From Sphingorhabdus sp. EL138 (GTDB lineage: Bacteria; Pseudomonadota; Alphaproteobacteria; Sphingomonadales; Sphingomonadaceae), in NCBI RefSeq assembly GCF_900258045.1, contig NZ_OGVD01000004.1, positions 868,001 through 932,000 on the forward strand: a stretch of DNA of 64,000 nt, written 5' to 3'. This document shows, in pieces, positions 2,814-5,235 of the stretch; the stretch's first letter is position 1; every line of letters starts with the position of its first letter. The position numbers and the translations under genes were made by a program. The notes beneath the pieces are model-generated. The model was not told the origin of the DNA. It was given only the letters and a program-made list of their open reading frames with translations, and searched no databases.

Positions 2814-2883
2814 CCTCTCCCCTTGAGGGAGAGGACACCAAAGCCTTAGCGCCGAGGGCGCTTAGGCGACGTTGGTGAGGGGT
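2814..2883 (+). repeat. Palindromic repeat R1 (left end of DUF559 cassette)
   Basis: The unit starts with the hairpin CCTCTCCC/GGGAGAGG (2814-2834), continues through an inner palindrome AGCGCC-GAG-GGCGCT inside CTTA...TTAG, and ends with GGTGAGGGG (2874-2882). The same frame returns inverted at 3244-3310 and direct at 3342-3409, but each copy has a different inner stem. The 3' codons of the DUF559 gene are read from this repeat. Confidence 0.85.
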
Positions 2884-3227
2884 CTTGGGAAAGCGCAACC
2901 AAAATAGCTTCCAAAACGCCCTCTAAATTCTCGCCTATTTCATTATTCCAAAATCTAAGAACAGAATAGCCTTGCTTCTTCAACCATTGATCGCGCGCCA
3001 GATCATGATCATTATCATCATGTTGCGATCCATCTGCTTCCACAATCAGTTTCTTTTTTGTTGCATATGAAGTCGACAATATAAGGACCTATCGGTTGTT
3101 GTTTCCGAAATTTATATCCGCCTAATTGCCGGTCTCTTAGCCGGTTCCAAAGCAGGCGTTCCTGAGGCGTCATGTCGCGACGGAGCTGTTTGGCGCGTTT
3201 TAGAGTTTGCGGTTTATAACCGGTCAT
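2846..3227 (-). pseudogene. DUF559 (Vsr-like endonuclease domain) gene, frameshifted
   Basis: Reading on the minus strand from the ATG at 3227, the N-terminal half has DMTPQERLLWNRLRD and PIGPYIVDFICN, the hallmark first half of DUF559. The frame then shifts at an A6 tract (T6 on the plus strand, 3054-3059). With five A residues the protein would continue as KKKLIVEADGSQH ... SVLRFWNNE, the expected second half with the catalytic-looking E-x-DG and RFWNNE motifs. The spacing between VDFIC and LIVE is then exactly the family's. So a single-base insertion broke the gene, unless it is a sequencing error. The C-terminal tail SPTSPKRPRR is encoded by repeat R1. The alternative TTG start at 3254 would lie next to repeat R2. 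Confidence 0.85.
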
Positions 3228-3243
3228 TGGTGCTTTGCCTCGA

Positions 3244-3310
3244 CCCCTCACCAAGATTTTCTAACGAACAAGTTCGTAAGTAAATCTGTCCTCTCCCTCA
3301 AGGGGAGAGG
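3244..3310 (-). repeat. Palindromic repeat R2 (inverted copy)
   Basis: The copy is inverted relative to R1: it begins with CCCCTCACC (3244-3252) and ends with the hairpin CCTCTCCCTC...GGGGAGAGG (3290-3310). Its inner stem is ACGAAC-TT-GTTCGT (read on the minus strand), extended by AGATTT/AAATCT outside. The inner stem is unlike those of R1 and R3 in sequence but again self-complementary. Confidence 0.8.
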
Positions 3311-3341
3311 AAAAGTGGCCGAAACTGCAAAGAACAACCCT

Positions 3342-3409
3342 CCTCTCCCCTTGAGGGAGAGGATACCAAAGCCTTAGCAATTTATTGCTTAGGCGACGTT
3401 GGTGAGGGG
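3342..3409 (+). repeat. Palindromic repeat R3 (direct copy next to lpdA)
   Basis: It has the same outer parts as R1 (CCTCTCCC/GGGAGAGG, then ACCAAAGCCTTAG, then GCGACGTTGGTGAGGGG) but the inner palindrome is AGCAA-TTTA-TTGCT. It ends 10 bases before the stop codon of lpdA, so its hairpins would form in the 3' end of the lpdA mRNA and could act in termination or stability. Confidence 0.85.
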
Positions 3410-3419
3410 TAACGTCCAA

Positions 3420-4809
<1,390 letters not shown>

Positions 4810-4817
<8 letters not shown>

Positions 4818-5235
4818 AATTTTCTTTCAATTCAGTTCGTTCAACCAATAGCCACCACAAAATTCCAGCGGTAACTCCCCCAGTTCCTCCTAGTAAAATA
4901 CCGATTGAAAACACATTAGTTATGCTAGCGCCGAATAACTTCAAAACCAGCAAACATGCGAATGTGCCAACAATTGCACCTAATCCCCCCAAAACAAATG
5001 GACCGTTGGTCCAGCCCACCTTCCTAAAAAACAACAGCGAGGGAATGCCGATCAAAAAACTACACACCAAAACAAACGGGAAATACAGCGCGGAAAGGAA
5101 AAAAATATAACTCAGAACATTTATCACAGACGTCGTATCAGCATTGCCTTCATACATAATTCCGAGAATTGCTGTCTGAAGGGAAACTAGTAAAGCCACA
5201 GAAAAATAACGAATGATGTTTCCTGCTGGACTCAA
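4810..5235 (-). CDS. Small integral membrane protein between pdhC and lpdA
   Basis: The 141-residue protein shows four hydrophobic segments (about residues 9-27, 35-65, 78-100 and 108-130) and charged ends, typical of a four-helix inner-membrane protein. No known motif is visible. Its ATG overlaps the pdhC stop by 4 bases and its stop overlaps the lpdA start by 8 bases, so it is fully embedded in the operon and translationally coupled. The DNA is visibly richer in A and T than both neighbours, which hints at recent acquisition. It is not a known part of the pyruvate dehydrogenase complex, and I cannot assign a function. Confidence 0.75.

Follow-up and report, generated by a model that had tools for sequence, protein, structure and literature searches.

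DUF559 nuclease genes beside BoxC/PIT-like triplex repeats: a likely partnership and a putative decayed example in Sphingorhabdus sp. EL138

Genes of the DUF559 family lie beside a structured, mirror-tailed hairpin repeat far more often than chance would allow. This link is strongly supported, and DUF559 is likely the missing partner of the BoxC/PIT triplex repeats. Such fold-up repeats have been puzzling since the 1990s, and DUF559 is a common family to which little function has been assigned. Joining these two unknowns gives both of them one hypothesis, which is testable in Escherichia coli K-12. In the window, meaning the whole stretch of 64,000 nucleotides analysed here, three copies of the repeat and a broken DUF559 gene occur together. 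We read them as a decayed two-part system, a structured repeat with a DUF559 nuclease that would act on it, at a probability of about 0.55. A search of the open-licence literature, a BoxC paper (PMC2267715) and a MITE review (PMC10969869) among it, found no statement joining DUF559 to these repeats, and earlier reports may exist.

Three repeat copies and a frameshifted gene in the window

The three copies follow a common plan, consisting of a CCTCTCCC-loop-GGGAGAGG hairpin, an inner stem within CTTA...TTAG, and the tail GGTGAGGGG. Copy A (2814-2882, plus strand) has its hairpin at 2814-2834, the inner stem AGCGCC/GGCGCT and its tail GGTGAGGGG at 2874-2882, directed toward the DUF559 gene. Copy B (3244-3310, minus strand) is inverted, with the hairpin at 3290-3310, the inner stem ACGAAC/GTTCGT and the tail at 3244-3252, also toward the gene. 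Copy C (3342-3409, plus strand), with the hairpin at 3342-3362, the inner stem AGCAA/TTGCT and the tail GGTGAGGGG at 3401-3409, adjoins the 3' end of lpdA (3420-4826, minus strand), a neighbour gene named from the first-pass annotation and the appearance of its translation, and whose site was compared across relatives. Reading the sequence confirmed the claim of that annotation that three copies share outer ends and carry differing but paired inner stems. Copies A and B are inverted around the DUF559 gene with their tails inward, while C is direct with respect to A and back to back with B. The hairpins of B and C are separated by a 31-nt spacer (3311-3341), which is identical in two related loci (L213 and L217) and differs in three others (L215, L219 and L221). 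In the window, a relaxed motif scanner placed three motifs that overlap or are shifted, two of them across B and C, so its coordinates there are rough.

The DUF559 (PF04480) gene (2846-3227, minus strand) is frameshifted. Its first part lies in the frame 3260-3018 (ATG at 3227) and its second in the frame 3088-2846, the end of which runs into copy A. Against PF04480 the two halves, each in a frame of its own, align to positions 4-53 and 50-108 and score 66.9 and 71.7 bits, above the gathering cut-off of 20.6, placing the gene in the family. The switch of frame falls near a homopolymer (3054-3059), and a sequencing error may lie behind the frameshift. Relatives with an intact DUF559 gene exist, and a profile search of the window's own genome (3.66 Mb, 4 contigs) found no further DUF559 match. 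Thus, of the earlier description of A and B as inverted around one DUF559 gene with C direct beside lpdA, the arrangement stands, while the gene proves to be split over two frames.

The repeat is also found elsewhere in this genome. An exact 21-mer occurs seven times in the 3.66 Mb, plus once at two mismatches, against one match for a reversed-pattern control. The search with the outer ends that had been suggested at first pass recovered nine relaxed hairpins in the 4 contigs against one control match; these occurrences are not due to chance. Six of the nine lie beyond the window, as two inverted pairs without a gene (hairpin starts 136 and 137 bp apart), one single element and one bare hairpin.

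Fold and layout of the repeat

Nineteen DUF559 regions from the genus, additional to those of the association tests, served for repeat typing and contributed to a collection of inner stems, which holds 66 distinct sequences with hairpin, spacer and tail, and 63 distinct inner regions. For the inner regions, the median z-score of folding is -2.9, and 71% lie below -2. For 31 of the 63, picked by length and composition and then aligned, 88.5% of cells are paired compared to 62.7% in shuffles, and 68 cells are double-changed compared to 24, values that none of 300 shuffles reached; the test somewhat favours structure because one set of sequences supplied both alignment and structure. The inner stem thus covaries, as the first-pass annotation had proposed should be checked, and the pattern argues strongly for compensatory change.

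The tail carries a second signal. In repeat types read by eye, it is the purine arm of the hairpin written backwards, in which A may become T. Among 167 distinct hairpins near DUF559 with asymmetric arms, the mirror match exceeded the direct match in 101 and fell below it in 14, with 52 ties. Tails matched their own purine arm at 8.23 of 9 positions, a value that none of 200 arm swaps reached (7.28 when swapped), across 230 hairpins near DUF559, which are not independent because they hold only 43 distinct purine arms. The mirror score of 170 hairpins far from DUF559 was 7.21. A purine tail that mirrors the purine arm of its hairpin is, judged from sequence, the signature of a purine-motif intrastrand triplex. 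The earlier suggestion that selection acts on a folded structure is supported by both kinds of covariation, within the inner stem and between purine arm and tail.

This layout is that of the BoxC/PIT/TM triplex motif of E. coli (PMC4666352), which likewise has a pyrimidine arm, a purine arm, a mirror purine tail and inverted close pairs. The published search used loops of 1-6 nt, whereas the window copies have 37-39 nt with a second hairpin between purine arm and tail, and some other DUF559 repeat types have 2 nt. For this reason, the window repeat is best read as a variant of the BoxC/PIT triplex motif, a kinship that was not recognised at first pass. Since the second hairpin lies in the 37-39 nt before the tail, the variable inner stem would be an insert in the triplex loop. 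The E. coli motif forms a triplex in vitro, and footprinting in vivo by Holder et al. saw no triplex (PMC4666352).

Other identities were considered for the repeat. A simple terminator reading was rejected: terminators need no mirror tail, and PIT elements have neither promoter nor terminator activity according to earlier work cited by Holder et al. (PMC4666352). The CGTC-tagged REPs of alpha-Proteobacteria, as described in PMC3733652, are similarly palindromes tagged at one end, mostly in inverted dimers, and 'apparently lack a dedicated transposase'. Their stems end in AT pairs and their tag is CGTC, while the window repeat has C-G pairs and the tail GGTGAGGGG, so membership was rejected against that description. 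Rfam gave 12 matches at E up to 1, mostly miRNA hairpins and none at gathering score, and was uninformative. The RIME elements of rhizobia are a further candidate for comparison.

Association with DUF559 across bacteria

DUF559 is present in 92 of 147 relatives and in 145 of 398 genomes of the phylum. The regions tested comprised 80 from the window's own family, taken from the relatives' listing, and 40 from the phylum listing (20 from other families of the class, 20 from elsewhere in the phylum). They were the best-scoring listed places, picked without looking at repeats, and are not a random draw. In the family set and with no repeat model, an inverted repeat of score at least 40 spans 65 of 83 DUF559 domains compared to none of 830 random placements, which answers the proposed comparison of inverted copies around the gene with chance. 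When only domains flanked by 300 nt or more on each side are counted, the figures are 65/82 for the family, 12/22 for the class and 11/20 for the phylum, against 1/800, 1/200 and 1/200 random placements. In the first gene control for inverted repeats, four of six first-set matches lay at the end of a locus; with edge genes left out, 4 of 804 other genes are spanned.

The triplex motif gives the same picture. It occurs within 350 nt of 122 of the 125 DUF559 domains and on both sides of 89, compared to 64 and 3 of the 804 other genes in the same regions. By set, the motif was found on either side of 83/83 domains in the family, 20/22 in the class and 19/20 in the phylum, and on both sides of 69/83, 9/22 and 11/20, respectively. 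Motif density is 4.0 per kb near DUF559 and 0.097 per kb elsewhere, and base-shuffled flanks of DUF559 contained no triplex motif. The inverted arrangement is mostly tails-inward, with 230 motif tails toward the DUF559 gene and 119 away, counts that include some hairpins twice because a palindromic hairpin can match on both strands.

A second, named set used YcjD as the query and took the best 80 of 149 relatives, from which seven loci with flanks under 330 nt were dropped. The motif was found at 71 of the 73 usable loci compared to 2 of 130 other genes, so the first-pass remark that DUF559 genes often stand near such repeats holds in both sets. In Enterobacteriaceae, it is present at 29 of 30 loci and on both sides at only one, meaning almost always on one side; outside this family, it is present at 42 of 43 and on both sides at 35. 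The set includes metagenome-assembled genomes (MAGs) labelled Chloroflexi, Planctomycetota, Elusimicrobia and Marinimicrobia, and one Planctomycetia MAG has no motif, yet a strong inverted repeat. One contig labelled Chryseobacterium (L280) carries an Enterobacteriaceae-like ycjD with 67% identity to that of E. coli, likely a contamination or mislabel.

Among 12 further named loci, in a scan that left out L241, the motif lies within 350 nt in 10, including 4/4 from Deinococcus and 2/4 from cyanobacterial plasmids. The two remaining cyanobacterial loci lack the motif; a strong inverted repeat is present at one and absent from the other. At the Pseudanabaena DUF559 gene (L255), a strong inverted repeat scoring 128 is built around an AATT centre and escaped the triplex scanner; AT-richer repeat variants may exist. 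DUF559 genes on Synechocystis plasmids (L254 and L252) adjoin genes annotated as BREX PglX, DUF1156 and VapC toxin-antitoxin, a defence-like setting that differs from the chromosomal ones. PADLOC, run on two DUF559 proteins, returned no defence-family match.

Two other enzyme families served as negative controls, each with its best 30 loci, of which one (Vsr) and seven (Y1) were dropped for flanks under 330 nt. The motif was present at 1/29 classical Vsr (PF03852) loci, unlike at DUF559, and at 0/23 loci of Y1 transposases. The Vsr result bears on an alternative that we hold improbable, that DUF559 is a host repair nuclease, engaged in very-short-patch-like repair or the processing of structured DNA at stalled forks, with the repeats serving its gene as regulatory or damage-signal sites. 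YcjD has been assigned to the PD-(D/E)XK superfamily, and searches with its profile pick up Vsr (PMC1189080). Beyond this likeness in superfamily and motifs, Caulobacter VsrA carries a DUF559 domain, the DNA damage (SOS) response of a methyltransferase mutant depends on VsrA, and the protein has been proposed to be a mismatch-repair nuclease (PMC12907096). The solved DUF559 relative, 3hrl, is named only 'Endonuclease-Like Protein'. Against a repair role stand the rarity of the motif at classical Vsr genes and the consideration that a regulatory site needs neither genome-wide copies nor an inverted pair shared along with the gene at several sites.

In E. coli, the proposed partnership can be followed at ycjD. 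The gene is present in MG1655. Among 5426 complete E. coli genomes, 3365 have a ycjD match and 2061 have none. The copies 3' of ycjD match the BoxC/PIT/TM motif and are one loop base off a sequence in Table 1 of PMC4666352, which counts 23 triplex-motif copies in MG1655, describes five pairs in inverted orientation and notes increased instability in the vicinity. In that description, the copies show no link to mobile elements or to a functional class of neighbours, and no mobility gene is reported, in contrast to the DUF559 gene found here. The main text does not contain 'ycjD' or any word beginning with 'nuclease' ('endonuclease' fell outside this look-up).

In a comparison of 60 E. coli genomes listed by even steps, the 37 with ycjD hold 13-27 repeat places (median 18, the ycjD place included) and the 23 without it 1-16 (median 5), a difference with a rank-test value of 1e-10 in a test that ignores relatedness. 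Lineage confounds this comparison, because eefRABCD and ycjD are alternatives at one place and ycjD is conserved in phylogroups A, B1 and C (PMC12817139).

Repeat types, movement and the proposed mechanism

Repeat families differ among DUF559 genes, even inside one genome. At 33 of 39 loci with a paralogue, the repeat of the nearest foreign homologue was closer than that of the own-genome paralogue. A strict non-syntenic version gave 24/39 (p 0.10) and, by genome, 7/17 (not significant), with a synteny filter that is over-strict in that any flank ORF at 35% identity counts as homologous. Across 3971 non-syntenic pairs, protein and repeat similarity correlate at rho 0.15 (2/999 permutations reach this), and for pairs with at least 55% protein identity, mean repeat similarity is 0.53 compared to 0.35 when permuted (0/999). 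As far as such sequence comparisons can tell, the linkage between protein and repeat is real and partly due to vertical inheritance.

Dispersed copies of four repeat types were counted in 32 genomes of the genus and compared with typed DUF559 genes, the window genome being typed by hand from its broken gene. Further same-type copies occur in 6/6 genomes with a type-2 gene (p 0.011) and in 4/4 with a type-4 gene (p 0.018), while for type 1 and type 3 the p values are 0.06 and 0.38. Copies are also present despite no typed gene (type 2 in 11/26 genomes, type 4 in 15/28, type 1 in 15/17 and type 3 in 10/29), counts in which the type-1 pattern also catches type-3 hairpins and not all DUF559 genes of the genus are typed. 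Genome-level copy number thus follows the matching DUF559 moderately, with many exceptions. In one genome (G013), 14 of 19 type-2 copies stand in close pairs 62-85 bp apart.

Supporting mobility, genome G076 holds three units of DUF559 gene plus repeats at different sites (L042, L043 and L044). The first two share 516 bp at 97.9% identity, covering the gene and both repeats, and no other plus-strand match was found between their 15-kb regions. The third is a diverged copy, with 91.6% identity to L042 over 510 bp and 683 bp at 85.8% shared with L043. No target-site duplication was recognised by eye at the sharp L042/L043 homology boundary. Among close DUF559 relatives (at least 65% identity), 61 of 73 pairs are syntenic, and movement is therefore rare.

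These units could also be explained if DUF559 were a passenger between repeats that form a mobile unit, with another enzyme, replication errors or recombination spreading the repeats. The sharing of gene and repeats as one unit fits this, as does the frequency of gene-less pairs and the persistence of repeats where no DUF559 was found (for instance in G011, in the incomplete genomes G008 and G029, and in E. coli lacking ycjD). However, one would not expect a random passenger to be this one nuclease across several phyla, motifs flank only 3 of 804 other genes on both sides, and Y1 transposases have none nearby at 23 loci. We therefore consider a mere passenger unlikely and prefer a DUF559 nuclease that acts on the repeats.

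The lpdA locus offers a comparison of occupied and empty sites, as the first-pass annotation had advised. Gene and repeats are present in the window and in four relatives (L213, L215, L217 and L219). A pair of repeats without the gene begins at the same TTTTCT/CCTCTCCCC border in L211, the closest relative (94% across the lpdA query), gene-less pairs also stand there in four others (L223, L226, L233 and L235), and in L216, L218 and L220 no such hairpin was found in the stretch examined. Depending on the species of the genus, DUF559 genes of two different subfamilies lie on one side of lpdA or the other (L045, L055, L062 and L212-L221), as if the locus had received such genes repeatedly.

Vsr-fold homing nucleases exist, and DUF559 might be a free-standing enzyme of this kind that cuts repeat sites lacking the gene and is copied in, the repeat being its target and not a cargo to spread. 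The occurrence of lpdA sites with the gene, with a gene-less pair or empty speaks for this, and so does the hpa cluster, within which the neighbours of DUF559 differ among three Deinococcus species. Homing alone leaves the dispersed gene-less pairs and the tight inner-stem covariation unexplained, and we rate it slightly below the passenger and repair alternatives.

Under the two-part reading, we infer that DUF559 recognises, cuts and spreads the repeat. The first part would be the repeat itself, made of pyrimidine arm, loop, purine arm and a purine tail mirroring that arm. One strand would fold into a hairpin, and the tail would lie back on it as a third strand in a purine-motif intrastrand triplex. 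In the window lineage, a second hairpin would have been inserted in the loop before the tail, where it needs only to keep its stem. The second part would be DUF559/YcjD, a Vsr-related PD-(D/E)XK nuclease encoded between or beside the repeats, which would bind the folded repeat when single-stranded, for example at a replication fork, and nick or cut it. Repair copied from another repeat would then spread or homogenise the repeats, occasionally carrying the gene along. The working mode would resemble that of REPIN-RAYT or a homing nuclease, without transposase chemistry. A simple version in which the enzyme moves the repeat is weakened, because the window gene is broken while six hairpins lie elsewhere in the genome.

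The comparison with REP/REPIN-RAYT systems extends to several features. In both, structured palindromes in inverted pairs flank a single enzyme gene, protein type goes with repeat type, and gene-less dispersed inverted pairs occur, here in G013 and the window's own genome. The REPIN-RAYT enzyme is a HUH tyrosine transposase, whereas the gene beside the repeat here encodes a PD-(D/E)XK nuclease of the DUF559 family; the GTAG tag is missing, and a third-strand mirror tail is present. With 0 PF01797 matches in the own genome as well, membership was rejected, and since enzyme class and tag differ, the likeness is one of working mode only. The first-pass suggestion of a RAYT-like role accordingly keeps its support from the flanking inverted repeats, the dispersed gene-less pairs and the similar repeats of similar proteins; the broken window gene, the moderate copy-number correlation and the strict nearest-homologue test count against it.

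A wider and more tentative reading, which we place somewhat short of even odds, is that DUF559/YcjD forms a new class of repeat-dedicated nucleases. Each of them would be tied to one repeat family, recognise a hairpin joined by a third strand, and spread its repeats with or without the gene. If true, BoxC/PIT repeats would gain, across bacterial phyla, the enzyme that has so long been missing, and REPIN-RAYT a counterpart driven by a nuclease. DUF559 might then also be the first enzyme for which an intrastrand triplex is shown as the target. The instability published for BoxC/PIT repeats could find its explanation here as well.

Two loci of the collection hold DUF559 within one open frame of 442 codons (L047, 6693-8019, and L094, 7438-8764). 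In L047, DUF559 is followed by a repeat-encoded linker and then a domain that by eye resembles a PrmC/HemK methyltransferase; the frame in L094 has the same length.
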